A stretch of DNA of 64,000 nt, taken from Marchantia polymorpha subsp. ruderalis (lineage: Eukaryota > Streptophyta > Marchantiopsida > Marchantiales > Marchantiaceae). Below the pieces are notes generated by a model. The model made no database searches and was not told the DNA's origin. It saw only the letters and a program-made list of their open reading frames with translations. The stretch's first letter is position 1. The number at the start of each line of letters is the position of its first letter. Made by a program: the position numbers and the translations under genes. The stretch spans positions 14,054,501-14,118,500 of the forward strand of contig AP031352.1 in assembly GCA_037833965.1 (NCBI GenBank). Reading direction: 5' to 3'. Of this stretch, positions 14,757-52,432 are shown piece after piece.

Positions 14757-14780
14757 CAATCCAAGAGATTGAGGGTGTTG

Positions 14781-17700: not shown

Positions 17701-17981
17701 TTATTGCTAGACATAGAACTGGATCTCATAGTCTTGGGATTGAAGAAGGGCGTTGGTTGAACATTGATAGGAGTGAACGTATTTGTAGGCTATGTGATGG
17801 AAGAAAAGTTGAGGATGAAGAGCATGTATTTCTTACTTGTTCTAGGTATGTAGAGATTCGAGGGGCGCATAAAGTTGATGTCAAGAATTTCTTTTCTCTG
17901 CTTCAACTCGAGCCTTATGATTTAGGTTGTTACATTAGAGATATTATTAGTTACCGTTCTAGTGCTTTGGGCACTAGCTAG
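14781..17981 (+). CDS. LINE ORF2: AP-like endonuclease, reverse transcriptase, zinc finger
   Basis: This is the enzyme for target-primed reverse transcription. The N-terminal endonuclease shows MWNIRGL, VETW, a GDFNAR motif near 15221, TIDYLL near 15466 and the catalytic SDH near 15540. The reverse transcriptase follows with NYRTIM, QAGFR, motif A FIDFKKAFDTV near 16555, QGCPLSP near 16731 and the active-site YADD near 16853. A C-terminal CxxC...H...C finger (CRLCDG...EEHVFLTC, 17787-17840) matches the finger common after plant LINE RT domains. The first in-frame ATG is at 14781. The frame is also open upstream through TTG codons to the ORF1 stop. The protein is about 1066 residues, a normal length for the family. 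No RNase H motif was recognised. Confidence 0.93.
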   Translation: MWNIRGLSTTKYVSAHPIWKMADILNIVETWEHESNVIGEIQGFTLVGSTWNHRNRRAGRGFGGIATFIRSELLPMIHLESQDIGKQYHWLRLGLIGGSYSYLAVCYFAPLSMQIYSTSTCNRSQPFHRLIGDVLKYQDKGEVFLVGDFNARISSAQFTQFDSSLSSHSFEESRDSLWSRVSCDPCTNDLTEHFLTFGATCNLKVLNGVSFFPNSHSNTCISSTGVSTIDYLLSSATNSSFISAFDILEPQPESDHTPLLFTLLLSTSIPLPTCHYVSTSPKFCLDASKKQLYSEHFQDLLTCTTWSLDPHTSSLQLTELLQNSASKFFLRHKTRRARGLPCNGWFDFDCKQARARSLDKSLDLHNRLIMTRLYKDLVKSKKRAFLRQKQECLTKELLENPKSFWRRLAVQSSKPTLDPKSLISFAEKLYFFPNVASMPHCEGNPGLFSEVEVMTQLRQLANGKCEDLDGLSIELLKWGGDAIGPILTKVLEDAAIHGFPSSWSLRKIVPIHKSGSKALVTNYRTIMVGSIFAKLFGKLVESKLSTWAESCQKRARFQAGFRPTFNTIDHILVLRVLWEKSKGNGKALFCAFIDFKKAFDTVPRELLWQRLQAIGVPSDLLAAVAALYHSVRAKINTSQTEEIISTIGVIQGCPLSPTLFGVFIDDIERWLEDCDSEGVKLGGFVIKALLYADDVILLARDATSLQKHLDTLASFCTQNQMEVNLEKSKVILVGTRSKLSFCYKGLELEQVKSYKYLGIDFSSDYSWALCVQKRVEAGFKALYSLLNRCRGAHLVSWSLRKFLFRSLVFPVILYGTQVWGPGCKKTGWQRLERVQKIFLQEELGVRTQTSYAILLAETGCLPLEAEALFLTITYVKRVRSLDASRLPLEAMHATRPKGWFADVVTWSLRWNVTELDWNLQPIALRERIREEFLSIMWSTRGTKMQFYQLHVNPMLVYCEQGYLLAGISTSLRHIIARHRTGSHSLGIEEGRWLNIDRSERICRLCDGRKVEDEEHVFLTCSRYVEIRGAHKVDVKNFFSLLQLEPYDLGCYIRDIISYRSSALGTS

Positions 17982-18100: not shown

Positions 18101-19546
18101 AGCTTCATGCAGAAATTCTTCTATGAAGCCTTGGATGTTAAGCGAGGAATTAATAGAAATATTCCATGAGTAATTTACTGTTAGTTTCTCGGTTGCATCT
18201 TTCCATGAAGATTTGGTTTCTCGTCTTTGTGGCATATTACTCTACTCTCAGGGAGGAGCTGAGGGTTTAGATGAATTTTGCATTGGTGCGCAACAGCTCC
18301 TTTCGATCGTTAATCAACTACCCAATGAGCTTTGTGTGATCTTGAGAGACAGCTATACTGTAATAGACACTGTGTCACTGCTGCAGTTATTCCATATTAA
18401 AACTTAAAATCAAAACGTAAAACCCAGCCAAAGCATGTGCCGGTCTGAAAATGCTTTGAATAGAAAGTAACAGAAATGATGCTTTTAAGTGAAAGCGGGT
18501 AATACTCCATACTATGTTCGTCTGCGCGTTCAAGGGCAACGAGGAAGATTATTACATCTGAGACTGAAGCAAGGAGGAGCAGTTCAGCGGTCTTCAAATG
18601 CTAATTTGAGATTCGCTGAAAGTGATAAGAAAGAGAGTGGTCGCCGGTCACAACCAAGATCCTAAGAAGAATCCACTCTGCTGTATCGGCTTTGAATAAA
18701 CACAACAACACATTAAACTTTACCACTAATGGACTATTATAATCCTTTGTCTGAAGTGTCAATCAGTCACATTGACTACTCGTACTCCTGAAACATTCTT
18801 TTCCAGTCACTCTGTAATCAACACCACCCTTCTAAGATTCTAAGAGTGGTCTGTTGCGTGAATCGATTGGAAGAATCTCCCACTTCCACTTGAAGCAACG
18901 TCCACGCGTTTAGAAATATATAATGCGCTGTGGATGCAACTCGCCTGATATTGATAAATAGAGAACTTCGATCTCCAGACTACTTTGTCGCGATTGCTTG
19001 CCTCTTACCATCGTACCTAAACCCATACCTGCCTGTCTTTCAAAAACTCTCAGAGTCCATACCAACTGCGTCATGCGGCAGAGGACAAACTCGAAGAATC
19101 TGATACTCAATTCTGCCCTCAACAAACTGCTGCTCTGATTTCTTCGTAACCCCTTGGCTCAAGGACTGCTGACCAGAAATACCCGAGTAGGAAAGAGTAT
19201 ATAGATAACTCTGACCTGACAACAGTGCTGCAAGTCGCAACAAATCAAACGAAGAGATCCGACTTCTTAACGAGTGCCAGAATTTACCGCACCAGGTTTC
19301 GGGTAATACTTTCATAAATCCCCAAAAAGCTACTCGGCAGATTTCTCATGTGGTAGATACTTAGTCACATATTGGACCTTCCCTCACAACTGGCTTGGCC
19401 CAATCTATTGCAAGCGAGTTGCAGAATTTTTTCATACTTGGTTTTCGGAGTATAGATTGGACATCTATGTAGGTTCCACTGTCACAAGAATATGCCACTA
19501 TCACAAGAATATGACAACAGGCCTAGGTGACACATGCAACTGCAAG
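18101..19546. other. gene-like fragments between LINE and E1, unassigned
   Basis: A plus-strand frame at about 18190-18405 has the pattern NQLPNELCVILRDSY, faintly like the C-terminal part of ABC1/AarF-type kinases. No catalytic motif is present, so this is only a hint. Minus-strand frames at 18910-19125 and 19040-19315 overlap and could be one frameshifted exon. None can be named. The stretch contains no repeat I can delimit. Confidence 0.25.
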
Positions 19547-19861
19547 TGTGGTACCCCACTTTTGGTAATTTTGAGGAAATTAAAACATTTTTGGAAAAAA
19601 CTGTACCCTGGCAGCAATGTAAATAGCCTTCGGTGCATCAAAACAGAGTGAATTCGGAAGATCGCGGGGATTCTCGAGGGATCTTGTAGAATCTAGGATT
19701 TGAGTGCAGCAGTAAGGATGGGCACCACCCTCCCTGCGAGCTCTGCAGTTAGGATCCCTACGGCGCAAGGCGCAAAACCCGCCTTCGGAAGCTGCGTCCG
19801 CGGCGGTAGGGAAATCCTTCATATTTAGGTCAACCCTCGGGCGCCTTGACCGAGTTAGGGT

Positions 19862-19898
19862 CTCGTTGGAAAGAGCTCGACGCACTGATTCCAACGAG
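19862..19898 (+). other. stem-loop in the E1 leader
   Basis: CTCGTTGGAA (19862-19871) pairs perfectly with TTCCAACGAG (19889-19898) around a 17-nt loop. The E2 counterpart near 34062-34100 is recognisable but decayed. It lies in the presumed leader of the coiled-coil ORF. Confidence 0.55.
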
Positions 19899-20039
19899 CC
19901 CAAGAACGCTTGGAACGGATGAGGACTTAGGGAGTTATCACTATCGGAAGATACGTAGACGTTCGCCTTCGGCGGAAGGAGTTCGCCACCGGCGGGAATT
20001 CCGCCTACGCGGAAGGGGGATCAAGTTTTGCCCTATGCG

Positions 20040-22300
20040 CGGACGAAGGAAGTTCGCCTGTGCACAGGCGAAGTAGGGTTTGAGGAGGCGCGAAGTCCGC
20101 CTACGCACAGGAGGTCACCTGTGCACAAGCGCTTCGGCGTCGGCGGGAAATCCGCCTTGGGCCCTAGAAATGCGCCTTGTGAGGTAGAAAGTGTACGGCG
20201 CCTTCTGCGCCAGCACAGCGCCACGGACGAGCAAGGAGCCGCCAGAATAATCAAATCCGTACGGACCATGCGGACGGGACGGGTGGATGCGCTCTTGGAC
20301 TGACGGAGTTGCGGCGGCGGAAGCGCCGACGAAGAGACAAGGAACGGACAGTCTGGACGGAGACGGCTGACCACGGTCAACGCCTTCCGCGCCGGCGCGT
20401 CGCCGCGGACGGAATTCGCCTGCGCACAGGCGAGCGCCTGTGCACAGGAGGATGAAGTTCCGCGCCGGCGGAGAATCCGCCGAGGAGTCTGCCTGCGCAC
20501 AGGCAGGAGTTGAACTTTTGTCCGACATGCGGACACACGCGTCGAGGCAGAAGGGGATTGGCTGAGGAGCAGTACGAACAAGTGTACCGCGCAAGGCGGA
20601 AAACTCGCCTTCGGCGCTGCGCTCCCATGTCCGCGGGGTAGTACGCTCGCGGAGTTCAAATCCGCCAATTCGAGCGTGAGAGTTTAATCGGCGACGGCGG
20701 AGCGTGAAGCCGCGCGTGAGAGCGGAGACCGTTCCAACGTAGAGCCGGCGCGGCCATCAATTGAGACGTCCTCCACGAGCAAGAGCCGACCATGACCTTC
20801 GACCGGGCGGCGGAGAGCGTCCCATTCTTGAATTCGCGATTCCACTCTCTTGTGCGAGCTGCGCGCGTCCATCTGCTGGCTGCTAAGCATTCTCGACATC
20901 GCCGCACAGAGGATTTCTTGGTGATTGAGGGAGAAGTGAGTGCGCGTGATTTGGAATTGAGGGCGATTAGAGTTTGCCGAGAGAGAAAGGAGCTCGAGCG
21001 GTGCGGAAGTAGAATGAGCGGGCGAGCGAACTCCAGGAACGCAATGACGAGACCGGGCAGATTGCGGATGCTGCCGCTTCGTCTACCACAGAACAGGCTG
21101 CGCGCTTTCGAGGAGCGCTTGATAGCAAGAAAGCTCAATTTCTTGCTATGGGGATGGAACTACATCTGTGCGGATATGGTGCGCGAGTGGCTAGAGCCAC
21201 AGGGACCACCCTCGCGCGGATTGCGTCCGCATGTTGATCGGTGGACAGTCCAAGATTGGGCGCAGGCATTGGGAAGATGTGCCGGCATGCTAGGGCATCT
21301 CCTCTTCGACAGTGAGAGCATCAAGGTGACCAAGCAGGAAGAGGCGCAATTTGTGGAGCTGTTCAAGACCGGGAGGTCTACCAAGAATGAGTACAGGACC
21401 CGCGATTACAAGGATCGATTTCGCCGGACTTTGTCCGCGGCGCTGATGCAATTACTGCAGCCACACCGCGCCTGCTACATCACATTGTGGCAGGTCTCTT
21501 TTGTGGAGTGCGTCATCGAGGGAACTCCAATTCACTGGGCGAGCATCCTGCACAGGGTGATGCGACAGCATGCTTTTGAGGAGAAGGGGGGAACTCTAAA
21601 CCATCTCTCTCCTTTCCTCATCAATTTTTATCGACAGCGGAATTGTTTGACAGCGGCGGAGCTTGAGCGTTTTCCGCCGTTGTCCGTCGACCATCCCGGG
21701 AAGTATGTGCGGGAGAATGAGGTCGACACTGATGTAGAGGAGTCACCGACTTCTACTCCATCAAGGCGAAGGGACGAAGGGAGAAACACTCCTGCAGCAC
21801 GAGTGCCGCGGAAGCGGCGATGGAGAGAAGAGTCCGAAGAGGAGCAGCATCAAGAACCCTCTGCTCCCATTCGACCGCGGCCGTTGTACGAGTCATACAG
21901 CCGGCCGAAGCAGAAGGCACGCAGACTGGTGTTACCAGCCAACAGTGCGGACACGGCGACGATTGCGACGGAGAAAGGAAGTGCGTCGCCAGAGAAGCAT
22001 GAGGAAGCGCGGACGTCCGCAGGAGCAACGGACCACGCTGCAGCCTCGACGGGCGAGAGACCGCCTACGGGCCAAGGGCCTCCGGAGTTACCACGTGCGT
22101 TGCGGACAGGTGTTCCGTTTGCGCACAGACGAGACTCCGCGGACGGACGAGACTCCGCGGACAGACGATCACAAGCGGACGTAGATCTACGCTTACGCGT
22201 GGGAAGGAGCAGTCCGCCTGTGCACAGGCGCTCGCCTGTGCACAGGTCGCCTGTGCACAGGTCACCTCCACACGTGCCGCCTGTGCACAGGCAGGAATCA
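20040..22300. repeat. interspersed GC-rich palindromes CGCCTGTGCACAGGCG in E1
   Basis: CCTGTGCACAGG, the core of the perfect palindrome CGCCTGTGCACAGGCG, occurs at least six times by hand count: near 20055 and 20433, and four times clustered at 22215-22290. Near-copies are CCTGCGCACAGG, CCTACGCACAGG and CCTGTGCACAAG. They fall both in the leader and inside the coding frame. The related motif GCCTTCGG also appears about eight to nine times in E1. Confidence 0.8.
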
Positions 22301-23932
22301 CCCCCGTTCCAACGTAGGAAGGGGAAGGAGCCGGCGGAAGAGCCGCCTACGAGACACCGGCCTTCGGGGCCAGACCCTCCGGCGCACCACGCGCCGAGAT
22401 TTGCGCCTTCGGCGCCAGGGCCTTCGAGCCGAGGAGATACGAGCAGGGAGTGTGCGGAGGCCACACCATCGGCGGGTAATCCGCCGGTAGATGCGCCTTC
22501 GGCGGTAGGGCCTCAGGGCCAAGGGACATCGGGCGAGCGGCCCCCGACCATGTCGCTTTTGGCGATGGATGTCCGCGGCGCTACGCCTGCGGCGGACAAG
22601 GCGCCGGCATTTGCGCCTGCGCACAGACCAAGCACAGCCCCCGCGGGCCGATCAAGGGAGCAGCAACTGGCGGAGGAGCGGAGTGACTGTCCGCGGGATG
22701 AATTTTCGGTGCGAGATGCGCAATCAAACCCCGCGCAGCCACCCTCCGCTCGATCGCCTTCGGCGGCGGACGTCGGCGGTAGGGAGGATACGGTAGACGA
22801 TCAACAAGCGGGCGGCGGGGATGCAGCACGGGCACATTCGCCTACCGCCTTAGACATTTTGGCGAAGAGCAGCGAGGCTGCAGCCGTGCCTTCGCAGGCA
22901 GCACACGTCGACGACGTGCAGCCCCACTCGGGTCAGTCGCCAACGCAATCAATGGCGACTGAAATTCTCCACTCGGATGATGACGACGGAGGCTCCACCG
23001 AAGAAATGTCAGGAGCAGGGGACACCGAGGAGGAGGAGGAGGAAATTGTTGGAGCGCCGGCGGCGGCGCTCTCTGAGCAGGTGATTCCGTTGCTGAGGTA
23101 CTTGGATCGCAAAGTCGATAAATACGCCGACCCACTTCAGCCGGGATCTTACATCGAGTTAGTGCGTAGGCGGACTCGCACTAAAGTCCACACCAGCAAG
23201 CTACTAGCTAGAGTGGACCAGGAGTTGAGGGAATTGAAGGAGAAGCATGAATGCTTGTGGGGTCAGTATAAACTCAATCAGAAATTCTACAAGTACTCCG
23301 AGAAGGTGAGGGATGGGAAACTGGAAGAGCTCACCAAGGAGCAGGTGAAGGTCACAGAAGCACTAATTTCTGAGCAGGCCCAGAATCGGATTTTGTCAGA
23401 GGAGCTCGTGCGACAGACGCGGTTGTTAGAACAGTGTCAGCTCGCACGGCAGGCGGATGAGGAGGTAATCCGCAGGCTACAGTCAGAGTGTGGCGAATTG
23501 AGAGCGCAACGTGCTGAGGCCGAATCGCAATTAGTGGTAATTGAAGAGGATCGCAGGAAGGAGGCAGATCGCACAAAGGTGGAGACGGCGAGGCGTGTCG
23601 CCCACTGTCTCAAGGGCTACGCCCACTGGGAAATGGCGGCGTAGGAGAAACTCACACTGCGTGAGTTTGAACTTCGCGCAGCCGGGTTGTTGTCAGGCGA
23701 CAGTAGGAGTCGGCGGAAGGTAGCAAAGAAGCTCGATGCTTTTCTGTCGAAGGCGCAGGATACCATGTCCGCCCTCGAAGTGGAGGTGTCCGCGGCGTTG
23801 CAGCGATTGGGACTGCGCAGTCGAGCAGAAGACTGGCAGGGTAGGGAGTTAGTGCGCGGCAGTCCGTCGCGCAGGAGACGTAGCACAGGTTCCGCGGAGT
23901 GTAGTGTAGCGTGGTTCCGTGCAGGCGTGTAG
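20792..23932 (+). pseudogene. E1 coiled-coil protein ORF, one internal stop
   Basis: From ATG 20792 the frame is open for 950 codons to a TAG at 23642-23644. The same frame then continues for 95 more codons to 23932. At the position of the TAG, E2 has CAG, so the ancestral product was about 1046 residues. Residues about 110-310 form a globular region rich in W, F and H (WTVQDWAQALG, HRACYITLWQVSFVEC). Residues about 315-730 are low-complexity and rich in P, S, R and A. An acidic patch (EEEEEE near 23030) precedes the best-conserved block shared with E2 (LLRYLDRKV, GSYIELVRRRTRTKV, SKLLAR), then a long coiled coil (ILSEELVRQTRLLEQC, ECGELRAQRAEAESQL) and a basic C-terminus. No enzymatic motif is visible. 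I know of no function. A structural, Gag-like role is possible but unproven. Confidence 0.75.
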
Positions 23933-23957
23933 TGTAGTGCTAGTATGACTTAGAAGG

Positions 23958-23986
23958 TATAAAATAGTTCCAGGCGTTTTGCCTGG
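23958..23986 (+). promoter_or_regulatory. E1 TATA box and adjacent hairpin
   Basis: TATAAAATAG (23958-23967) is followed at once by CCAGGC (23970-23975), a 5-nt loop and GCCTGG (23981-23986). E2 has the same arrangement with a compensatory pair change. It lies about 970 bp before the 3' end, downstream of the ORF, as a U3/R promoter would in an LTR. Confidence 0.6.
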
Positions 23987-24369
23987 GGTTCTTTCCCATC
24001 AGAAGTGCAGATCAGGAACCCATTTCCTTTGCGTGTTTGTGTCCTTGAGTTCTGTCACCACGCACGAGGAGTTACAACTTAGTGTTCCGCATTTTGTAAC
24101 TGAAGGCCTTCGGCCGAATGTTCAGAGCTAGTACATTGGTTAGAGACTTGAGTAGTTCGGAACTGCACCTGCGGGTGACTGCCGATGCTCAGAGCCAGTG
24201 ACTAGTTAGATACTTGAACAGTTTCGCCCCTACACCTTCGAGTGTTTCTTTCTGATTGTACTCCTTTGGGATTTTTCCCCTGAATGCCAAAGTGAAGTTT
24301 TGCTACTTCGTGTAATCCTTGGTTGTAAATTCAGGCTACGCTGCAGCAGGTGCCTTGAGGGTAACCCCT

Positions 24370-24836
24370 GTAGTATTTCTGGGAATGACAAGTGCCTGAG
24401 AATTCAAACTCTTCAATAGACTGTTGTTGTGTTACTGGAATGTTTCTCAGTGAGTCCTTCAGTGCGGACCTGTGTTCTCTGCGCGTTTTGTGAGTTGAGA
24501 GTGTTGTTCACCGCGTATGAGTGACTTCGATCCGAAGTAGGCAGTCCAAACCGGGTTTCCTACACTAGCAGCAAGCTAGTGGAAGTGTTGTAAAAGCCGG
24601 AGTTGGAAGTCACTACCCGCAGCTTCGCCGAGTGTGCTCGCGAGAGACTTTCCCCCTGAAATCCTGAAGTAGAGGTCCTAACGGATCTCTGGGTTGTGTT
24701 TCTGTAGTTTCAGGTGTGTGTGTGTGTGTGTTACGCTGCACTGTGCGACCTCCGAGTGCGCTCCGAGTGGACACTTGCAGTATTTCTGGGAGTGACAGTT
24801 GCCTGAGAATTCAAACTCCTCAATAGTCTGTTAAAA
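24370..24836 (+). repeat. internal duplication in the 3' part of E1
   Basis: The segment TAGTATTTCTGGGAATGACA...GAATTCAAACTC..CAATAG at 24370-24431 recurs at 24778-24836, about 408 bp later. The same pair is present in E2 (about 36393-36448 and 36819-36882). A GT dinucleotide run lies at 24714-24731. Confidence 0.7.
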
Positions 24837-24934
24837 TGTGACACTTTGTACCCTGTGTGTTCCTCTGTCCCTGTGGGTTCGACCTTTCTACCACTATATT
24901 GCAGTTTTAGCCTTTAGTGGGTTATTACAGCAAG

Positions 24935-25912
24935 GTTCAGGTCAACGATACTGCACCAGTGATCTTTGCCGACCAAGCGCGGTTTGCAGTTACAATAAAT
25001 TGCATCAGAGATTCATTGTGTATCTACAACTCCTCTTGTTTTGAAGTTTAAATCTGCAAGATTTTCATCTATGTGTTCAAAAAGATACAAAGAATCATTG
25101 AAACCTGAACTTCATCGTGCCATGTGATTTTGGTTTTGAGGTTGAAGAGATCTATACATATACATACGTCTACAGTGTTTCATGGCGACTTTTGTTCCAA
25201 ATATCTCTTTTTGTCCTGAATCTAAGACTTTTTTCTTGAACAAGTTTGTTTTATCAGTAACCCTGGTTGGATTATCCATATGCAAAGAACTATATTAGAC
25301 CAAGATTTTTCTATATTTCTCATATGAACATTTGTCACAAATTAAACATATTTGTTAGAAGAAAAAATTAGCTTCATATAATTTTTCGATCTAAATTTGA
25401 GTAATATCTAGCCTAAAAACTCCAAAAAAAAATGAATGAATTTTCATCAAATAAATCTAAATATATTCATCTTGTAAAGAAATAATCTAATGATATTTAG
25501 ATATCTTTGATATCTAAATATCATTAGATAACTTTTTTTCCAATATATATCATTAATAATTTCAACCTTCACTTTGATTATCTCAAAAATCAAACTTTTT
25601 TTTTCAGAAAAATAATCATAAATTTATCATCAGGCTCTGGGCTCCGAATGGAAGATCTCGAGGCAGGGAAGGAGCATGTTAAAGATACTCAGTCCCAAGA
25701 GAAGAAGACTGGATGGACCTGGTGATGGCTGAGCACGAGAATTCGCTCACGGCTGTATTCTGTCTCCAAGAATTTCCAGTCAAATCTTCTTCTCGTTCCT
25801 CTGTCAGAAAATTCGGACGCCGTTTACTGGTGCGCGGCGGGGCTAGAAATGCTGGCCCTGGTTTTGATCGTTTGGGTGGCTCTGACTCCATAAGTTGCGG
25901 TAGTTTGGTTTC
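24935..25912. other. AT-rich spacer, no gene recognised
   Basis: Contains a perfect hairpin at 25485-25529. At 25679-25933 there is an 84-codon minus-strand frame without a recognisable domain, overlapping the start of the ORF at 25922. Confidence 0.5.
25485..25529. other. perfect 21-bp inverted repeat with 3-nt loop
   Basis: The 21-nt arm at 25485-25505 and its exact complement at 25509-25529 flank the loop TTT. The arms are AT-rich. Neighbouring DNA gives no clear TIR element boundary. Confidence 0.75.
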
Positions 25913-25921
25913 TAGCCCTTC

Positions 25922-26212
25922 ATGTTCTTCCACCCATCCCTAAGGATCAAACTGGAAAAACTCTTCTCTTGGCTCTTCTCTCACAGCGATCGTCTCGGCC
26001 GCCAAGCCATCTTTGCACTGAGCACTGTCCTCATGTTCTTCGTGATCAGAAACATCGATGACTGCCTCACGAAGAAGTATCCACGATCAAATGTTTTCGT
26101 CTGGTGTTTTGACGTCGCGAAGAGGTTTCCTCCTGTTCCGAATAACATTGCTTCTGTTGCACTTCATTTACTCTTTTCCCCATCGTTGCTGTCTTCTTCT
26201 TTGCTCTCTTCA
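25922..26212 (+). pseudogene. 5' part of an ORF split by a copia element (membrane-protein-like)
   Basis: This frame runs 97 codons from ATG 25922, the first ATG after an in-frame TAG at 25913, up to the insertion point at 26212. Its last five bases, CTTCA, are the left copy of the target duplication. On the far side of the retrotransposon, the frame from 31233 continues in phase for 67 codons to TGA at 31434-31436, so the empty site would encode 164 residues. A hydrophobic segment (IFALSTVLMFFVI) near residue 30 suggests a membrane protein. I do not recognise the family. The weak initiation context leaves open that this was one exon of a larger gene. Confidence 0.55.
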
Positions 26213-26360
26213 TATTAGATTAAACCCTAATTAGGGTAGTGACGTGGCATTAGATGAGTCACTGATTAGCAGTAACCCTAAAAGGTACCGCAATTGTATG
26301 TATATATTTGATTACAATTTTGATCAAGCTCTCTTCGAGAACACACATTCTGTGTCAACA
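26213..26360 (+). repeat. left LTR of copia 1
   Basis: 148 bp, starting TATTAGATTAAACC and ending TGTGTCAACA. It differs from the right LTR at several sites, including a 1-bp indel near AGCAG(G)TAACC. The AAACCCTAATTAGGG part resembles telomere repeat units by chance. Confidence 0.92.
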
Positions 26361-26372
26361 TGGTAACAGAGC
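26361..26372 (+). other. copia 1 primer-binding site
   Basis: TGGTAACAGAGC directly abuts the left LTR. The usual plant copia site complementary to initiator Met-tRNA is TGGTATCAGAGC, so there is one mismatch. Confidence 0.85.
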
Positions 26373-26421
26373 TTTTTCTGTGAAACAAAGAAACTCATTA
26401 TAGCGAAGCTAGCTCCTAGAG

Positions 26422-27330
26422 ATGTACCCTATCCTCAAAGAGATGATAGACTCAGCAAAGCTTGACGGTCAGTCTAACTACATGTTGTGGTGTTACAGAG
26501 TCAAGATGACTATGATGCAGGAAGAGCTATGGAATTTTATTGTACCTTCCGCAACTTCGACTCCAGAAGCCAGCAGCTCCAGCGGAGATTCGGGGACGGC
26601 TTCAGCTTCCGCCGCCATAACTTCTACAGCTGCTCCTGCAGTTATCGCTCCACTAGCACTTGTCCAAACGGACGAGGCAGAACAGAAGATACGTGCCTGC
26701 CGCATCATAGTGGCCACGGTAAAAGGTCATATTATTTGGCATGGTATTCATCTCATAGATCCGTCAAACATATGAAATAAACTGAAGCAAATGTATGATG
26801 TTAAATCTCCGTCAAGGCGCCTTGCTCTAAAAGGAAAATTGTATTCTCTTAGAATGTCCGAAGGGAAAACTATAGACTCACACCTACAGGACACAAACTC
26901 GCTAGTAACCCAACTTGCAAGTTTAGTTGTAGTAGTTAAGGATGAAGATCTTGTGGATCAAATGCTTGCAAGCTTGCCCAAGAGCTGGACAACCTTCAAA
27001 GCGATCCAAAAGAGTAGGGATAGGAGTCCTAATTTTTCTTAACTACAAGGATTGATGTTACATGAGGAGAGTTCAAGAAACTAAGATAGATTACAAGATT
27101 CGGATGAACTACTCTACTTTCAAAGGGACAAAACTCAACGTACTTATCCCGGTCGTGATACCCGAAGCAGTCAGCCTCGTGACAACCGTGAAAGAGTATT
27201 TGATCAAAACCGAGGTCGTGGACGTAGCTATCAATCTCGCCGTACCTACAAGAAATGTGGCAAGTACAATCACACCGAGGCAGATTGTGAGGCTGCAAAA
27301 GTAGAGACTCAAATCCACGAGCTCTTATCA
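26422..27330 (+). pseudogene. copia 1 gag
   Basis: The capsid-like part begins at ATG 26422 (KLDGQSNYMLWCYRVKM is the usual copia gag opening). A TGA at 26773-26775 replaces the W expected before NKLKQMYD. The frame continues at 26776-27042 (LKGKLYSLRMSEGKTIDSHL) and shifts after about 27042. A zinc-knuckle remnant, KKCGKYNHTEADC, lies near 27250-27291; the first cysteine of the CCHC set appears to be tyrosine. Confidence 0.85.
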
Positions 27331-27333
27331 CAG

Positions 27334-27921
27334 TTGTCAAAATTGAAGACAGGAGCAAGTTCATACTCTGCGATAGAAGACTCACCTGACGAGCTTGATG
27401 ACGAAGACTCCGAAGCTACACTAAATGCGTGCATGTCTGGCTTCTCCACAGATGAGAAACCATGGTTCCTCGATTCAGGTGCCAGCTCCCATGTTACCGG
27501 AAATTCCTCCCTTCTTTGCGATACTTCTCAGTCCTCTACTTCCACCATCCGTACTGCCGCAGGTCAGATTCCACCTGTAATCCATAAAGGAAATGTCAAT
27601 TTCTCTGACAAATCAGTAAAGACGGTGAAAGACGTTTTGTATGTGCCTGGAGTACGAACAAATCTCTTGTCTGTTGGTCGTTTTGCAGACCTAGGACACA
27701 CAATCTTTTTCAATTCAAATAGTTGCTTTATATTTGACATATTCCATCTCGAGATAGTATGTCTCCAAGCTACAAGAGACCCTAGGACAAAACTCTATAG
27801 ACTCCTTGGTAAATCGCTACTACCTCAAGTGTCTATGCTAAGAGTGACACATCCAGTTTCCACGAAGACAATGGACCTTTGGCACAAATGTTTAGCACAC
27901 GTTAAACAACAAAGCCTCTAG
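27334..27921 (+). pseudogene. copia 1 protease and GAG-pre-integrase region
   Basis: The aspartic protease active site WFLDSGASSHVTGN is near 27463-27504. The histidine-containing LWHKCLAHV of the integrase zinc region is near 27880-27903. A TAG at 27919-27921 ends the frame where family members continue. Confidence 0.88.
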
Positions 27922-27924
27922 CAT

Positions 27925-29196
27925 ATGTCCAACAAGAAATTAGTCAACGGAATTCCATTAATTCCTTACCTCAAGAAGCATTGCGTCAATTGCGTCATGA
28001 GCAAGTCGCATCGCCAGGCATTTCCAAAACTACGGATAACATTTTCCAACAGGCCGCTTCAACTCATTCACAGCGACTTGTGTGGACTCTTGTACACATC
28101 CACGAGAAACAACTATAAATATATTCTTACTTTCATTGATGATTTCTCAAGGAAAACGTGGCTCTATTTTCTCAATTCTAAATCTCAAACTCTATCATAT
28201 TTCATGAAGTTCAAGAGTTTAGTGGAGGCACCTTTGAGAAAGATTGAGACCCTCCGCAGCGGCAGAGGAGAAGAGTACACCTCCACTGACTTCAAGCAAT
28301 TCTGCACAATACACTGCATTCATCATCAGCTTACTGCCGGGTACTCACCTGAACAAAACGGAGTTGCAAAAAGGAAAAATCGACACCTGCTAGAAGGCAT
28401 ATAAAGTGTTGCATCCGGAACCCGCATACCTCGTTATCTCTGGGACGAGGTGGCACGCTCTGTCAACTACGTTCAAAATCGGCTACCATGTAGGGCCCTG
28501 CACTTGCAAACACCAGAGGAGGCTTACTCAAGTCAGAAACTCAATCTTTCGCACCTCAGAGTCATTGGATGCTTAGCTTACTATCATGTCCCTAAGGAGA
28601 AACGGACAAAGCTAGACGCAAAAGCACTTCCAACAATATTTCTAGGCTATGACAAAAATTTAAAAGCCTACCGTTGTTGGAATCTACAGTCTCGAAAGAT
28701 CATCCTGAGCCGAGATGTCGTGTTTGATGAGGCCAGATTCACCCTCTCTTCTCCACATGCAGAAAAATCACTTCTTGATTCATTATACTCTCTCTCACAG
28801 CTTGAGTCACATCCTACACAAACCATTTCAAAACCTATAACAGAACCTGATCGACCTAATCCTAGTTTAGAAAGCTTACCTTTAGGTCCCTCTTCATCTC
28901 TTCAAACTCCGCCACGCTCCCCTCGTATCTCCTCTCCCAAACCTGCAAAGTCAACACCAGTGTCGTTAGAGATCATACCTTCACCTCCACTTGAGCTCCA
29001 CCCTCGAAGCTCACGTGATCGAGCTCCCAGTATACGACTCGGGGAATACTACATATACATGACAACTCAATCTCCCGATTGTTGCTCGATTCTCGCCTTT
29101 CCTCTATCTTCCCCTGCAGGCGACCATCAAAATCAATCGTCAGTACCGTCTTTTCAAGAGGCGATTTCAGACCAAGAATGGCATCAGGCAATGTAG
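27925..29196 (+). pseudogene. copia 1 integrase
   Basis: CVNCVMSKSHR of the zinc-binding module, HSDLCG and FIDDFSRKTW of the catalytic core, and GYSPEQNGVAKRKN are all recognisable. A TAA at 28402-28404 interrupts it. The C-terminal part (28450 on) has the copia-typical FLGYD.N.KAYR segment and a proline/serine-rich linker. A TAG at 29194-29196 ends it, within a motif where WHQAMQ is usual. Confidence 0.88.
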
Positions 29197-30027
29197 GACG
29201 AGATCAACAGCATCCACAAAAACAACACATGGAGGCTAGAAGATCTACCCTTAGGCGTCAAGCCAATCACCTGTCGCTGGGTATACCGATCCAAACCCTC
29301 GACAAATGGCTCACCACCTGTCAAGAAAGCAAGATTGGTTGCCCGAGGCTTTGAACAGCGTCCTGGATTAGATTACGAAGAGACATTCGCACCTATGATA
29401 AAATGGGTGACCATCAGGTTAACAGTAGCTTTTGCAGCATCAGATAGGTGGGAAATACACCACATGGACGTGAAAACTACTTTTTTACACATTGTCCTTA
29501 AAGAAAAAGTATACATGTGTCAACCAGCTGGTTTTGAGGTTCCAGGAAAACGTACCAAGTTCTGTCGCCTTCTCCAATCGCTCTATGGACTAAAGCAATC
29601 CCTGCGCGCTTGGTATGAACGCTTTGATGCCTCCCTGTGCAGCATCGGCCTTACCCGCAGCGCCTTCGACCACAACCTATATTTCCTACACAAGAACAAC
29701 CATATTCTTTTGGTCATGCTCTATGTTGACAACTTGTCCATCGCAGAAAGCGGAACAAAACTGATCTATTGGATAAAACAATATTTTAAGGACACATTTG
29801 ATATGACGGAACTGGGGAAGATTTCAAAATACCTTGGAGTTACCTTCAATTACCTTCCTCATGGTATACTCTTCAATCAGCATGACCACGCAGCATCCAT
29901 TGTCCATGAGTTCTTGCCATCAAACTCTACACCTGCACGAGTACCACTTCCCGCTGATCAAATTCTGGTTGCTGAAACAAGTACTTCTTCCATTGATCCT
30001 ACCTCTTACTCTTTAGCTTGTAGGTAA
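29197..30027 (+). pseudogene. copia 1 reverse transcriptase
   Basis: The sequence RLVARGFEQRPGLDYEETFAP is degraded only at its start. HHMDVKTTFLH, YMCQPAGFE and SLYGLKQSLRAWYERFD follow in order. The catalytic YVDD is YVDN here (near 29728), which would abolish metal binding. A TAA closes the frame at 30027. Confidence 0.88.
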
Positions 30028-30139
30028 ACTTATGTTTCTTACCATTTCCAGACCCGACTTTTCCTATGAGGTCAATTGCATAGCTTCCTATGTGGCACAA
30101 CCTCAACAGGCACATATGGATTATGCCATCCACATACTC

Positions 30140-30700
30140 CGCTACATCAAATTCAGCCTTGAATACTGAATTTTCTACGCCAATGACAAACCTCTAAACC
30201 TTGAAGGCTTCACAGACGCGTACTGGGGAACGTGCCCTGACATACGTCGAAGTGTAGGTGCGTACCTGTTTCACGCCGCTAGGGGACCTGTCAGCTGGAA
30301 CTCAAAGCGACAACTCACAATTTCACGCTCATCCACGGAGAGTGAATACAAGGCCCTCTCCAATGGCGCTCAAGAAGATGTTGGCTGTCACGACTCCTCA
30401 CAGAATTGCTGGTAATCCTTGCAAAGCTTGTTCCGCTCAGCCAAACAAATAGCGAGATTAGTTCAAACCTATAACCTACTCTCCATATTAGTTGTGACAA
30501 CCAGAGTGCACTGAAGTTTGCAAAAAATCTTGTCTTTCATGCGAGGAGCAAACACATAGAAATACATCACCATTTTGTAAGAGAGAGAGTACTAGAGGGG
30601 GAAATTGGATTGAAATTTATTAGTACTTCTCTTCAATCCGCAGACATCCTCATCAAGCCTTTAGGTGGAGTGAAATTTGAATTACATCGTACAAGCATAA
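30140..30700 (+). pseudogene. copia 1 RNase H
   Basis: Motifs SRSSTESEYKALS (near 30326), CDNQSALKFAKN (near 30487), ARSKHIEIHHHFVRE and SADILIKPL are in the usual copia order, but spread over more than one frame. Confidence 0.8.
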
Positions 30701-30719
30701 ACCTGTATAGCCTATCCTT

Positions 30720-31064
30720 ACTCAAAACAAAAGTACCAAGACTCTAACCTTCTGGAAATCTATAAGCCTCTTCAAAGTCTTGAAGGATTTGAACTGCGCA
30801 CCACTAAAACACCAACAATCTGCTCCTCGCGCTCATACTTCGCAACTCGGTCAAGCTTGTGACATTGTCTCAAGAATGCGCGATCAATTGCTTTGAAAAC
30901 GGTTCCACTCACATGTGCCATCAATGCGCAAATGGACCAGAGCACCATTAACACAAAATCCCAACACGTGCCTCAACGGACAATGTCCTGACAACACGCT
31001 TGTGGTTCTCCGACTATCTCCATTATCAAATTGTACAAAATTCACTCCAAAACTGCAGTGTCTC
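30720..31064 (-). other. extra segment between RNase H and 3' LTR
   Basis: About 340 bp that copia elements usually lack at this point. A 60-codon minus-strand frame (30772-30954; AFLRQCHKLDRVAKYEREEQ) looks protein-like but is not recognised. It may be a captured host fragment. Confidence 0.3.
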
Positions 31065-31065
31065 G

Positions 31066-31078
31066 GGTTGAAAGGGGG
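31066..31078 (+). other. copia 1 polypurine tract
   Basis: GGTTGAAAGGGGG directly abuts the right LTR. It primes plus-strand DNA in LTR elements. Confidence 0.75.
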
Positions 31079-31227
31079 TATTAGATTAAATCATAATTAG
31101 GGTAGTGACATGGCATTAGATGAGCCACTGATTAGCAGGTAACCCTAAAAGGTACCGCAATCCTATGTGTATATTTGATTACAATTCTAATCAAGCTCTC
31201 TTCGAGCACACACATTCTGTGTCAACA
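31079..31227 (+). repeat. right LTR of copia 1
   Basis: 149 bp, same ends as the left LTR, followed by CTTCA. Confidence 0.92.
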
Positions 31228-31232
31228 CTTCA

Positions 31233-31436
31233 CTAAATTTTTCACTGTCTTTGTCCCTCATCACCGTTCCAATTTGGATACTAATCTTCGCTCTACATCT
31301 CTTGGTTCATCTTGCTGCAATTGGTTTTGTTGCACCTCTCTTGCTTCTTTCTCTGTCTCGTCGTATCATGCACTCTTATCTGGCCAAACGAAGATTGAGA
31401 TCTAAAGGTATAGGCCAAAATGTTTGTGACGCGTGA
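31233..31436 (+). pseudogene. 3' part of the ORF split by copia 1
   Basis: Continues the frame of 25922-26212 in phase. It encodes a strongly hydrophobic stretch (VPIWILIFALHLLVHLAAIG, then FVAPLLLLSL), then a basic end (RRIMHSYLAKRRLRSKG), and stops with TGA. The pattern suits one or two membrane spans followed by a cytosolic tail. Family unknown. Confidence 0.55.
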
Positions 31437-33010
31437 TCAGCCAATTCTTGAGTCTTCTCATGAGCACGGTAATGTTTAGGCTGACGCTACTACAGTCCAG
31501 TAATTGAGCATCTTCACTTCTCTCATTCGGAATGAAGATTGAAGATCCCGCAGTTTCATGTCTTGGCTCGAAGCCCCAATTTCGCATGATGTACAATGAT
31601 CTGCGAAGGGAGAGCAGAGATACCGCTTATGAAGTATGCATAGCAAGCACCATTCTGGCGTATTTGTCAATGTGTTCATTTCGAGACGAATACTTGTAGC
31701 CATGCATGCGCTTACTCACTCAATTATTCAGCTCATCATTATCCAGCAAAGGCGCAAACTTGGTTGGGAATTGTCCAACATTTCCAAACATTCGACTCCC
31801 TCTTGGTTTCTATGAGAAAGTTTCACACACAATGTTAGACAAAACTAAAACTCTATCTCCGAGAGAATCCATTAAAACTCTTAAAGCTAAGCAGTCTTGC
31901 TTAAATTAGAACCAAAGATCCGATAGAGGTCAGAAATTTTACAGTCGCAAAATTATGAATCCTTTTTTAACAAGTGCAACATCCCTCTTGGCTTCAGAGA
32001 ACGAAATGTGTAAATTGATATTGCGGTCACGAATGTCATTTGAGTAAAGTGTACTGGATAGGTCCATGGTGCCAGCCAAACTGTAAGTGTTAATATTATC
32101 CATATAAAAATGTAAGAATTTATAATAAAAAGTAAATCACAGTATTTTTTAAATATTTTATTTTATTAATAGTATTTATTTATAAAAAATTTAAATACAA
32201 AATAATAATTATAATTAATTTTTGATTTTGATTGAAAATATATGTTATTCATATATATGAAAGAAAATTCCAAAAACCTATGATGCAGATAGCTATTTAA
32301 TTGTTTAAAGTTTGCAATAAACTATATGTTGAATGTTATAACAAACTTATTCATAAAAAAAATTCAAGAACTAAATAAAATTATTATTATTAACAAATTC
32401 ATTCTAAATGATTTTGGAATCTAATCACAATTCATAAAATCTAGAGTTTCAAATTTTTCAATTTCAAAAAATTAGGCAAAATTTAGTTTTTTTGGTGAAA
32501 ATAAAAAAATACATATTAAATTTTTTTCATGTTAAGATGACCATGTTAATAGAATTTATCAAAAAAAACATGTATAATCATTTACAAGTTCATAAAATCA
32601 TGTATAAACTTGTAATATGACTAATCAATCCTGCATTGTTTTGTTTAATAAATATTAATTTTACTACATATAACTTGTATTTGTTTTGAACTTGTGACAT
32701 TCAAATTTTTTTCATTGGGACAAAATTTTGACTTTTAAATATTCTTAATCCTTCAAATTGCAGATTTTATTTTTCTACAAATTTAACATGTTAATGAATG
32801 AAAATTCTTTCATGATCAAATGTAGTTTTGCATACTTTTTGCAATATTTTTTTAAAAAAAATTTAGTCAAATCATTTATCTCAATGAGTAATAAAATCAT
32901 AAACGTAGAATCAAAAGTCATTCAAGGTGATTACAAACACACAAGACACTCATATGAGGTGATTCACACTCAAGGGCTACGAACCAGACTGAAACACGCA
33001 AGAAGGTTTA
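31437..33010. other. spacer, AT-rich from about 32080
   Basis: No gene recognised. Two overlapping minus-strand frames at 31402-31703 are unassigned. 32080-32880 is extremely AT-rich. Confidence 0.5.
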
Positions 33011-33480
33011 TCCAGTAGAAATATTGGGGATATATATATATATGCCCAACGTAAGCGACACACCTAGCTATAAATAGCTATAACTTGAGGTTACTCCTTC
33101 ACCGAAGTTAATCTCAACAATCTACTCCTTCACTTGTGTTAAAGAAATAGTAATGTCTATAACCTATATTATTACTAAGCAGGATGTTCTAGACAGAAAC
33201 CTAACACAAGGTCACTTTTTACACAAGAGTTAATTAAAACTAGACTGTATCATAACAAGATAAAGTATTAACATAAAGAGATAGCTAAAAAACCTTTTTG
33301 CATAGAAGTATCAGAGATCTTGTAATCTATGTATTTATTCCGCGGGAAGTTCTAAGAGGAAACCCAATACAAGCTCTCTCATTACACAGGAGTTTACTAG
33401 AACTAAACCGTAGCCATCACATGATAGAGTAAATATATAAAGAGATAATTGAAATTATTATGATAGAAAATTTTATATTT
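33011..33480 (-). repeat. probable 3' LTR region of copia 2
   Basis: This lies immediately downstream, on the minus strand, of the copia 2 RNase H end and a purine-rich GGGGAGCAAA. It contains an internal imperfect duplication of about 125 bp and a TA run at 33031-33044. I could not fix the LTR ends because the 5' LTR is missing. Confidence 0.4.
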
Positions 33481-33761
33481 GCTCCCCATGCACAACCTAC
33501 ATGGTAGCGCAGTGTTGGCTGAAACTCTCCAAAGTAATAACTTTGATCAAAGCATCAGCTGGATTGAGTTTAGCGTCGACTTTGATTAGCTCAATCGTTT
33601 TATCAAACACTAGTTATCTAATAAAGTGATACAATATGTCGATGTGCTTCACTCTGCTATCTATGACCTGGTTCGCAGCCAAATGTAAAGCACTCTAACT
33701 ATCACAATGAAGATTAATTACCTCTTGCTTCAATCTCATTTCCATGATAAGCCTATCCAAC
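33481..33761 (-). pseudogene. copia 2 RNase H, distal part
   Basis: On the minus strand it reads DRLIMEMRLKQEV, then CDS-stop-SALHLAANQ, then VKHIDILYHFIR and NPADALIKV. The stop is a TAG where CDSQSA is usual. It joins in frame with the part beginning at 36979 once E2 and one CCAAC are removed. Confidence 0.88.
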
Positions 33762-34159
33762 TGTGGTAACTCACTTTTTGTTTTTGTGCGGAATTTAAAA
33801 CATTTTTGAAAAACAGTACCGCAGCAGCAGTGTAAATAGTAATCGGTACATTTTAATAGAGTGAAAATGGATGATCGCGGGTCTCGAAGAATCATCAAGT
33901 TGGGCGCAATGTCCGGGACAGGCGCCCCGGCCCGAACGACCGATTCTGAAGGGAACCCCCTTCGGCGCAAGGTGGAGAATACGCCTTTGGCGCTAGACGC
34001 CTTTGGCGCTAGGGAAATCCCTCAGATGTTATTCAATTCATAACGCCTTGACTTGTTTAGGGTTTCGTTGAAAAAAGCTCAACGCGCTTGTTCTAATGAG
34101 CTCAAGAACGCTTGAAACGGATGAGGGATCAAGGAGTTACGATTGTCGGAAGATACTGA

Positions 34160-34815
34160 GAGGGAGCGCCTTCGGAGGAAGGGCTAGGTCGACGGACGAG
34201 CCGCCTTCGGCTTAGCCGCCTTCGGCCCTAGATCAACGCCTTCGGGGGTGAACTCCTTCGTACAAGCGCCTTCGGCGCCAGCGCATCAAGATTAGGTCAA
34301 CGCCTTCAGGGCAACTAACTCTGTACGGTCCGCCTTCGGCCCAACGCCTTCGGCGGTACGGACACGTGCGCCTTCGGCGGAACGGAACTCCTGCGGCAAA
34401 AGCGCCTTCGGGGGGACAAGAAGGATCGACACGATGTACAAAACCAGTTGACTGCGGTCAACACTTTCGGCCCAAGCGCCTTCGGCGATGCACCTACGTC
34501 GACGGACGTCTTCAAGGATACGCCTTCGGCGCTGTGAGTCAACGCCTTCGGCGCTGAGGGTCAAAGCCTTCGGCGGAAGGAGTCCGCCTTCGGCTGAGCG
34601 CCTTCGGCGGAGCGGGAAAGGACAGAGATGAGAGTCGGCCAGAGGCGAAGGCCTCCGTCGTCGCGACTTCAGCGATACGCCTTCGGCGGAAGCACCGCCG
34701 GCAATTGCGCCTTCGGCGGAAGCGCCTTCGGCGAAAGACCCGTCAGAGGAGCAAGACCACAAGGAGAAGGAGGACGCACGAGTGCCTTCGGCACAGCCGC
34801 CTTCGGCTCAAGCGC
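34160..34815. repeat. cluster of CGCCTTCGGCG-type palindromes in E2
   Basis: GCCTTCGG occurs about twenty times by hand count in about 650 bp, usually as CGCCTTCGGCG, which can fold as a 4-bp stem with a UUC triloop. Spacings are irregular, so this is not a simple tandem array. Where the frame is open it reads as repeated A-F-G-G. Confidence 0.85.
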
Positions 34816-35843
34816 ATTCGGTGCTGCGGCGTTGGTAGTGACAGATCGAGCATGCGGTGCGAACTTGTCGAAGACAGGATCCCCCACAGCCTTAGGCATT
34901 TTGGCCGGGAGCAGTGCGGCAGTAGCAGAAGCAGACGCTATGCAGCCCAACTCCCGGGAATCGCCAGGGAATTCTATGGCGACCGAAATCCTCGATTCGG
35001 AGGATGACGGAGAAGAAGAATCGGGCTCGGACGAGGAGGAGGAGCAATTGGTGAAGGGCACGCCGACGGCGGCACTATGCGAGCAGGTAGTACCTCTGTT
35101 GAGGTATCTTGATCGCAAGGTGACGAAGTACGCAGACCCCCGGCAACCTGGGTCCTACGTCGAATTAGTGCGCAGGCGGACTCGCACTAAGGTCCGAACT
35201 AGCAAGTTGTTGGCACGCTTGGACGAGGACATCAAGGATCTACGCTTGAAGAACGAGGCCCTGCGTGGCCACATTGCTCTTTCGCGGAAGCTGCAAAAGG
35301 TCGTCGACCAGACGCGCGATGAGAAGTTCGAGGAGGAGAAGAAGGAGTTCGCAAAGGAGAAAGCGAAGCTCGCGGATGAGCTGGATTCTGAGCAGACTCA
35401 GAATCGAATTTTGTCAGAGGAGCTCGTGCGGCAGACACGGTTGCTAGAGCAGTGTTAGCTCGCACGCAAGGCGGATGAAGACTTAATCCGCAAACTGCAA
35501 TCGGAGTGCGGCGAATTGAGAGCGCAGCGTGCGGAGGCAGAGTTGCAGTTGGTGGTAGTTGAAGACGATCGCCGGCAGGAGGCAGATCGCACGAAGGGAG
35601 GAGTTGGTGAAGCGAAAGAACCACTGTCTTAGAGGTTACACCCTCTGGGAAGTGGCTGCGCAGGAGAAACTCACATTGCGAGAGTTAGAGCTTCGTGCGT
35701 CGGGTTTGATGTCGGGTGACAGTCGGAGCCGGCGGCGAGTGGCTAAGAAGCTAGATGCGTATTTGTCAAGGTCACGGGACGCCATGGCAAACCTCGAGGC
35801 GGAGGTGACTGCGGTGTTGCGGCGGCTGGGATTGCGCAGTTGA
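34628..35843 (+). pseudogene. E2 coiled-coil protein ORF, disrupted
   Basis: A 276-codon frame from ATG 34628 ends at TAG 35456-35458, where E1 has CAG. Sequence homologous to E1 starts near 34870 (PTALGILA) and includes an acidic patch (DEEEEQL), the conserved LLRYLDRKV...RRRTRTKV block and coiled coil ILSEELVRQTRLLEQC. A frameshift lies near 35600. Beyond it the E1-like C-terminus continues (RGYTLWEVAAQEKLTLREL, GDSRSRRRVAKKLDAYLS) to a TGA at 35841, where E1 has CGA. Confidence 0.8.
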
Positions 35844-35975
35844 GCTGAAGACTTGTCGGATAGGGAGTTAGTGCGCGGCAGTCCGTCGCGCAGAAGGCAA
35901 AGTAGATGAGCTGCAGTGTGCTGCAGCGTAGCGTAGTGTAGTGCAGGTGTATAGTGTTAGTTAGGACTTAGAGGG

Positions 35976-36004
35976 TATAAAGTAGTTCAAGGCGTCTTGC
36001 CTTG
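35976..36004 (+). promoter_or_regulatory. E2 TATA box and adjacent hairpin
   Basis: TATAAAGT at 35976-35983, then CAAGGC (35988-35993), a 5-nt loop and GCCTTG (35999-36004). It is positionally equivalent to the E1 site at 23958. Confidence 0.55.
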
Positions 36005-36978
36005 GAATTCTTCCAGTTTCGGAAGTGCAGATCAGGAACTCATTTTCTCTGCGTGTTTGTGTCCTTAGTTTTGTCACCGCGCAAGAGGAGCTACAGCTTG
36101 ACGAAGATGCCGCATTTTGTAGCTGAAGGCCTTCGGCCGAATGTTCAGAGCCAATGTACTGGTTAGATACTTGAGCAGTTTGGATCTACACCTGCGGGTG
36201 ATTGCTGAATGCTAAGAGCTAGTAACTGGTTAGATACTTGAGCAGTTCGACCCTACACCTTCGGATGATTGTTCCTGATTGTACTCCTTCGGGATGTTTT
36301 CCCTGAATGCCAAAGTGAAGTTTTGTTACTTCGAGTAAGCCTTGGTTGTAATTTAGGTTACGCTGCAGAAGGCGCCCTCGGGGCAAACCTCTGTAGTATT
36401 TCTGGGAATGACTAGTGCCTGAGAATTCAAACTTGTCAATAGACTGTTATGGTGTGCTACTGGATCTTTTCTCAGTTGAGTTTCTCAATTCGGACCTGTA
36501 TTCTCTGCGCATTTTGTGAGTTGAGTGTGTTGTTCACCGCGTGTGAGTGACTTCGGTTTGACGAAGATACTGCATCCGAAGTAGGAAGTCCAAACCGGGT
36601 GCCCTGCACTAGCAGAAACTAGTGGAAGGGTTGTAAAAGCCGGAGTTGGAAGTCACTACCTGCAGAGCCTCTTAATGTACTCGTGAGAAACTTTCCCCCT
36701 GAAATCTTAAGTAGAGGTCATAACCGACCTCCGAGTTGTGCTTTTACAGTTTCAGGTGTGTGTTGAGTGAACTACGCTGCACTGTGCGTCCTCCGAGTGA
36801 CCTCCGAGTTGAGCGCTTGCAGTATTTCTGGGAGTGACAGTCGCCTGAGAATTCAAAATTCAAACTCTTCAATAGTCTGTTAAACGTGACACTTTGTACT
36901 CTGTGTGTTGCCTCTGTCCTTGTGGTTTTGACCTTTTTGCTGCTATATTGCAGTTTTAGCCTTTGGTGGGTTATTACA

Positions 36979-52395: not shown

Positions 52396-52397
<2 letters not shown>

Positions 52398-52430: not shown

Positions 52431-52432
<2 letters not shown>

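Follow-up and report, generated by a model that had tools for sequence, protein, structure and literature searches.

What are the two long elements, E1 and E2, that lie in a 64,000-nucleotide stretch of the Marchantia polymorpha subsp. ruderalis genome (contig AP031352.1, positions 14,054,501 to 14,118,500 of the forward strand; this whole stretch is referred to here as the window), and what is the long open reading frame (ORF) within them? A first-pass annotation, made from the sequence alone, described a two-copy family with TG...CA ends and offered two options: solo long terminal repeats (LTRs) with a protein-coding U3 region, or a non-autonomous transposon with short terminal inverted repeats (TIRs). 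It is clear that E1 and E2 are solo LTRs of a plant-type Ty3/gypsy retrotransposon, which is young and abundant. Very probably they belong to a lineage primed by tRNA-Asp, the U3 of which contains a complete, conserved accessory gene of about 1,040 residues. As annotated, neither of the window copies has a polymerase, integrase or transposase, which is as expected of solo LTRs.

The boundaries of the two elements and their perfect, differing 5-bp target site duplications (TSDs; GCAAG for E1 and CCAAC for E2) were confirmed by direct reading. The parts that they had been said to share are also present in the repeat listing, these being a common leader (D18), the common C-terminal ORF block (D1, D2, D5) and a common 3' part (D4, D8, D9, D11, D12, D15, D17, D19, D20). 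Approximately the first two thirds of the ORF are missing from E2. The genome searched for relatives comprises 241 Mb in 9 long contigs. All four of the further solo copies with both ends read have perfect, differing 5-bp TSDs (AAGAC, GGGCC, CATCC, and ACTGT). Six LTRs were compared together with their flanks; four are solo, one pair of ends belongs to a full copy (CCCCT), and the last, having a polypurine tract (PPT) on its 5' side, is a 3' LTR. The annotation had held that copies with different boundaries would speak against it, but the four further solo copies and the full copy share the boundaries of E1 and E2. What lies 3' of the LTR in 30 E1-type loci is mostly particular to the locus, judged by eye to be other repeats or unrelated DNA, which is expected for solo LTRs and 3' LTRs.

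A genome search with the LTR ends, as had been proposed, identified a full element with two LTRs flanking gag-pol. In 4 of the 30 fetched E1-type loci (L052, L058, L059, and L060; in L058 at a second LTR end) the LTR end is followed by a common 22-nt leader, TGGCGCCGCTGCCGGGGAC, and gag. The primer binding site (PBS), TGGCGCCGCTGCCGGGGA, is 22 nt past the LTR end, and its 18 nt pair exactly with CCA and the 3' terminus of a host sequence. The sequence complementary to this PBS is present at 29 exact places in the genome, with five more having one mismatch to the pattern, and the single such locus that was fetched is identified by ARAGORN as tRNA-Asp(gtc). A search for the initiator-Met PBS pattern gave no match.

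The internal region was read in the full copy L069. Its gag frame of 836 aa has Pfam matches to Retrotrans_gag (8.2e-13; capsid) and to zinc knuckles, its protease frame has a Pfam match at 2.7e-5, and its pol frame of 946 aa matches reverse transcriptase (RT), RNaseH and integrase (IN), giving the order PR-RT-RNaseH-IN, where PR is the protease. About 40 nt past the pol stop there is a purine-rich run, the PPT, which is directly followed by TGTGGTACCCCAC (the TGTGGTACC start) and an E1-like U3 ORF. This copy has CCCCT on both outer flanks; a comparison of 2,343 bases between its two LTRs gives 99.53% identity. At a second locus a purine-rich run (L072/L076) also ends at the LTR start. The LTR there (L044), with an R-U5 that is 99% identical to that of E1, is joined via the PPT to pol, with 97.8% identity to L069 over 2,596 bp. 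Of 48 copies scored for pol, 42 have no stop in this frame and the remaining 6 have one each.

This arrangement decides between the two options. A non-autonomous DNA transposon with short TIRs, 5-bp TSDs and a captured gene could account for the TGT...ACA termini, for the duplications and for the absence of polymerase from the two window copies. It is refuted by the full-length copy, in which gag-pol is flanked on both sides by the same sequence, with the PBS and PPT at the borders. In addition, Pfam found no transposase domain in the ORF, and the inverse match between the ends extends only to TGT or, loosely, to five of the first seven bases; a transposon of this kind has next to no probability. 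The solo LTR with a protein-coding U3 is the option that stands, with the same LTR at both ends of the element, the PBS and PPT in place, and an outer 5-bp TSD. LARD, TR-GAG and TRIM non-autonomous elements have TG...CA ends and are without pol. E1 and E2 are like them in both respects and unlike them in being LTRs themselves. A LARD with LTRs of its own was rejected for this reason and because neither element, among 20 of 24 direct-repeat families listed, has one of its ends repeated directly at the other.

The lineage is Ty3/gypsy, with priming predicted to be by tRNA-Asp, and is abundant and, to all appearance, recently active. Pfam gave no match at E<=1 in the 946-aa pol of L069 to the chromodomain that a chromovirus has at the C-terminus of its integrase. 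Only one RNase H region was matched in this pol, although a divergent second RNase H of archaeal type (aRH, Tat clade) could escape such a search.

Copy lists were ordered best-first and the counts are thus lower bounds. At least 40 copies were scored with each DNA query, these being the best 40 of 1,897 first-look candidates for the ORF block, of 1,611 for the E2 3' end, of 3,345 for the E1 R-U5, and of 2,955 for the E1 ORF start. The description as a two-copy family therefore holds for the window, but in the genome the family is large. The best 40 E1-type R-U5 copies, E1 included, have 98-100% identity over the 843-base query, and because of this the E1-type subfamily is seen as young. Of the neighbouring pol pairs that are no more than 40 kb apart, 5 out of 9 are spaced at 10.8-11.2 kb in the same orientation (C4, C6, C7). 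This spacing equals one LTR (5.4 kb) and one internal region (5.8 kb), from which it is likely that tandem LTR-internal-LTR arrays of the E1-type family exist. At two sites (C1:1829565-1831338 and C9:18153317-18155572), E2-type ORF blocks face opposite ways with only about 0.4-0.9 kb between them.

In E1 about 1.2 kb of U3 precede the ORF, which begins at 20792; the homologous frame ends at 23932, before the TATA box at 23958. Since the frame ends upstream of the LTR TATA box, the ORF is wholly within U3. A protein of about 1046 residues had been annotated, which agrees with the frame 20792-23932, but the ORF of E1 itself is 950 aa, with an in-frame stop at 23642-23644 after residue 950. Intactness was scored with a 315-residue N-terminal query in the best 126 of 8,281 candidates, so that the intact share among them is not a genome-wide share. 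There is no stop in the 315-aa N-terminal part of 112 of these 126 copies. An open frame of 1,000-1,080 codons is present in 48, and 46 of the 48 are without a stop in the N-terminal part.

Constraint on the ORF was estimated as the ratio of nonsynonymous to synonymous differences (pN/pS) from tblastn high-scoring segment pairs (HSPs) of no more than 70% identity and at least 80 codons. In frame, the median is 0.41 for aa 79-315 (16 HSPs) and 0.40 for aa 740-950 (33 HSPs, with some loci present twice), while the linker between them (aa 330-690) has a median of 0.66 (14 HSPs) and values up to 1.32. Shifting the frame by one or two bases gives medians of 1.01-1.48. As a yardstick, gag at 64% identity has a pN/pS of 0.29 and five pol HSPs (42-76% identity) have 0.17-0.45; two very distant pol pieces have 0.53 and 0.66, and for closer relatives of gag and pol, at 85% identity or more, the values spread between 0.07 and 0.97.

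A tblastn alignment is biased towards the frame under test, and differences were therefore also counted by codon position on nucleotide alignments. E1 and E2, over 846 gap-free bases, have 69, 44 and 110 differences by codon position (282 positions each), and the R-U5 of the same pair, used as a control, has 45, 44 and 33 (310-313 each), with no such bias. E1 and a divergent third family, described below as family 3, have 54, 40 and 84 differences over 503 gap-free bases (167-168 each); again there is no such bias in the R-U5 control, with 50, 46 and 41 (260-264 each). These comparisons demonstrate that two domains of the predicted U3 protein are under purifying selection, with the nucleotide-only alignments in agreement.

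It might be argued that the LTR was recently amplified with a passenger ORF, the fragment or relic of a host gene, which is open only due to the youth of the copies. The family is indeed young (LTRs 99.5% identical in one copy; best R-U5 copies 98-99%), stops are present in many copies, and the linker is near neutral in some. However, the constraint is specific to the frame in comparisons between subfamilies and families, where the median pS is near 0.6, and it is found in two separate domains and without recourse to translation. The position of the ORF in U3 is also retained in the divergent family 3. A passenger ORF is therefore very unlikely.

There are several points that weigh against a conserved U3 gene in the lineage of E1 and E2. 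The tblastn alignments favour frame 0 by construction and many of the HSPs come from one (E2-type) subfamily, hence they are not independent; the nucleotide-only alignments are free of the frame bias, yet there are just two pairs of them. Several copies have a near-neutral linker, with 1.02 and 1.06 in the two LTRs of the full element (88 codons) and up to 1.32 elsewhere. Single copies have up to six stops in the N-terminal part, the ORF of E1 is broken and that of E2 is mostly lost. A search upstream of the ORF in E1 for TATAAA or TATATA found neither. Lastly, the subfamily of E2 itself was not found joined to its gag-pol. The 30 E2-type loci were read for PBS-like leaders on one strand, and no weight is placed on the sole such leader (L021), which is followed by a decayed, distant integrase.

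Support for the age of the layout comes from contig C8, where an E1-type LTR (TSD AAGAC) is inserted into the LTR of family 3. The two sides of the insertion are described separately and were not joined. Compared with E1, the family 3 ORF is 51% identical in its N-terminal piece (L077) and 40% identical in its C-terminal piece (L045). The order in this family is an LTR start, TGTGGTAACACAC, the ORF, a TATA box, an R-U5 ending in GGGTTATTACA, the PBS with one base different, and a gag start that is 55% identical to that of L069 over 51 residues. The presence of a 5' LTR with an internal ORF and then gag in so divergent a family indicates that the layout is older than the E1 family. Relatives of the N-terminal domain at 34% and 40% identity to E1 are also seen at L024:2015-2629 and L025:1777-2358, with six and four stops respectively. 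Such distant relatives suggest at least one further old family.

The U3 protein has three parts. An alignment of the N-terminal domain of E1 with seven other pieces (34-75% identity) has 28 invariant columns. Pro, Ala, Arg and Ser abound in the middle part. The C-terminal part, which is charged and probably a coiled coil, lacks proline in all 35-residue windows between aa 785 and 945. The long coiled-coil ORF of the first-pass annotation is compatible with this proline-free part, although a crude heptad score does not set it apart. Pfam (E up to 10) found no family for the E1 U3 protein, in parts or whole, or for four divergent relatives, and the ORF piece of E2 gave only a sub-threshold BEX match (E 0.29). 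No PDB chain was matched by the E1 protein sequence or by a profile of eight pieces, and of 277 pattern matches in viral contigs none was confirmed as a relative. Motifs of the N-terminal domain raised the idea of a kinship with plant mobile or putative plant transposon domains; this is unsupported and is not claimed. Pfam gave no match to the plant mobile domain, to Transposase_28 or to Athila ORF-1 (PF03078).

One candidate function is that of an envelope-like product, with a gene that merely happens to be in U3. The post-pol position and sense orientation match the sense accessory ORF (aORF) of some plant elements (PMC7264820). However, the 950 residues have no membrane-spanning hydrophobic stretch; the top Kyte-Doolittle 19-mer is 1.14, and because no 19-residue window is above this an envelope role is highly improbable, the envelope protein being rejected on the lack of a membrane span. 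The U3 protein, whose expression is presumed, is taken to act instead as an accessory protein of the element, possibly in particle assembly, nuclear import or interference with silencing.

U3 is by definition the stretch between the PPT primer and R. With the PPT about 40 nt past the pol stop, a gene downstream of pol would be copied into both LTRs at each transposition; it is because the PPT is just behind pol that U3 takes in the ORF region and doubles it. The simplest origin of the U3 location would be a shift of the PPT. The LTR of about 5.4 kb would owe its length to the complete gene in U3, with its conserved N-terminal domain, low-complexity linker and charged C-terminal part, and recombination between LTRs presumably left solo LTRs such as E1 and E2 behind. 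In a transcript begun at the 5' LTR the gene would be confined to the 3' end, far past gag-pol, so that splicing, reinitiation or a U3 promoter would be needed. Translation of the protein may rely on the copy in the 3' LTR, by way of an mRNA that is spliced or started from a U3 promoter and is polyadenylated in R/U5.

Alternatively, the gene could be expressed from the solo LTRs through an independent U3 promoter, as a selfish gene, or a gene at host level, that is dispersed in LTRs and active mainly outside the element. The ORF is together with the R/U5 in which poly(A) sites should lie, and there is a precedent in mouse mammary tumor virus, whose U3 gene sag is driven by a second promoter in U3 (PMC9412291). 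The lack of either TATA motif upstream of the ORF and the decay of E1 and E2 speak against this, and it is considered unlikely. It is favoured, with some reserve, that an old plant Ty3/gypsy lineage shifted its PPT behind pol, and that the gene came to be held twice per element and to be left with an LTR 3' end at each recombination. This would make it a self-dispersing family of a previously undescribed protein, with a layout like that of sag, in a plant and about three times larger.

The features of E1 and E2 are listed in Table 1.

Table 1. Features of the solo LTRs E1 and E2, in window coordinates.
Feature	Position	Strand	Basis
5' TSD of E1, GCAAG	19542..19546	.	Read directly
E1 solo LTR, 5,383 bp, TGTGGTACC...GGGTTATTACA	19547..24929	+	Boundaries recur in other copies; second LTR of the full element opens with the same bases straight after the PPT
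U3 of E1	19547..23989	+	3' limit inferred from TATAAA at 23958, with the start site placed about 30 nt downstream by inference
U3 ORF of E1, 950 aa, closed by an in-frame stop	20792..23644	+	Homologous frame ends at 23932 (1,046 codons with the internal stop included, then a stop)
N-terminal conserved domain of the U3 protein, aa 79-315	21026..21736	+	pN/pS median 0.41 (16 HSPs); 28 invariant columns
Pro/Ala/Arg/Ser-rich linker, weak constraint	21737..23008	+	Composition; aa 330-690 pN/pS median 0.66 (14 HSPs), up to 1.32
C-terminal conserved part, charged, helix-favouring, aa 740 to end of homologous frame	23009..23932	+	pN/pS median 0.40 (33 HSPs, aa 740-950); proline-free 35-residue windows aa 785 to 945
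TATA box of E1 LTR promoter (predicted)	23958..23963	+	Same place in E2 and family 3
R-U5 of E1	23990..24929	+	In 4 of the 30 E1-type loci fetched, PBS and gag follow the LTR end; U3 boundary inferred
3' TSD of E1, GCAAG	24930..24934	.	Read directly
5' TSD of E2, CCAAC	33757..33761	.	Read directly
E2 solo LTR, related subfamily, 3,217 bp, U3 internally shortened	33762..36978	+	Other E2-type loci (L002, L004-L008) retain N-terminal domain sequence
Remaining U3 ORF piece in E2, 276 aa open	34628..35458	+	846-bp gap-free alignment with E1 has a third-position excess
TATA box of E2 LTR promoter (predicted)	35976..35981	+	Sequence read
3' TSD of E2, CCAAC	36979..36983	.	Read directly

Other repeats surround these two LTRs in the window. 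A decayed element, Copia-like by eye, is between E1 and E2 at about 26213-31227 (+); it has LTRs of only about 150 bp (D10, D16), the first of which is directly followed by the PBS-like TGGTAACAGAGC. E2 is apparently inserted in a minus-strand region encoding a Copia-like polyprotein, at about 33300-39000, with pieces on both sides (by eye only). The AT-rich DNA just to the right of E1 contains an inverted repeat with 30-nt arms and a 3-nt loop (25476-25538). A LINE-type element with a 1,070-aa open frame and matches to endonuclease and reverse transcriptase is at 14769-17981 (+), and at 51479-52794 three long frames overlap on both strands, which are probably not all genes.

Among the closest known elements are those of the OTA superclade of plants (Athila, Tat/Ogre/Retand). 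By the lineage features given in PMC6317226, they are alike in the order gag-PR-RT-RNaseH-IN, in having no chromodomain match, in a primer tRNA other than tRNA-Met, in 5-bp TSDs, in very long LTRs and in an extra sense gene 3' of pol; extra ORFs are described there for many non-chromovirus elements. They differ in the location of the extra ORFs, which in the plant elements covered by PMC7264820 are internal and mostly between pol and the 3' LTR, whereas here the ORF is wholly in U3, in both LTRs and in every intact solo LTR. Athila ORF-1 (PF03078) is present in 16% of Athila elements and is not strictly defining; in the U3 protein there is neither a Pfam match to ORF-1 nor an env-like membrane span. 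Retrosat2 of rice also has long LTRs (over 3.2 kb) and an extra protein of unknown origin, but its ORF0 is upstream of gag-pol and outside the LTR, of which 2,023 bp are R (PMC3485330).

A comparable layout is found in retroviruses. Sag has about 320 residues, compared to about 1,040 here, and the lentiviral nef overlaps U3. Mouse mammary tumor virus likewise encodes an accessory protein in its LTR U3 (PMC9412291); it is an animal retrovirus, likened here by layout and not by sequence, and the comparison is an analogy only. In the open-access papers searched, no conserved protein encoded within an LTR was noticed for any plant, and priority is not claimed. The annotation had judged that a coding LTR of this size would be unusual, and the ORF conserved inside a plant-type LTR is judged to be real.

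LTRs are usually annotated as regulatory DNA. If, as these comparisons suggest, a gene under selection takes up about 3 kb of every full LTR, solo LTRs may be mis-masked as non-coding, or the gene mis-annotated as a host family. The position of the PPT would decide whether an accessory gene is single or doubled within an element. The lineage would thus be a plant parallel to the U3-encoded accessory proteins of retroviruses, with a protein that is without a sequence match in Pfam or PDB.

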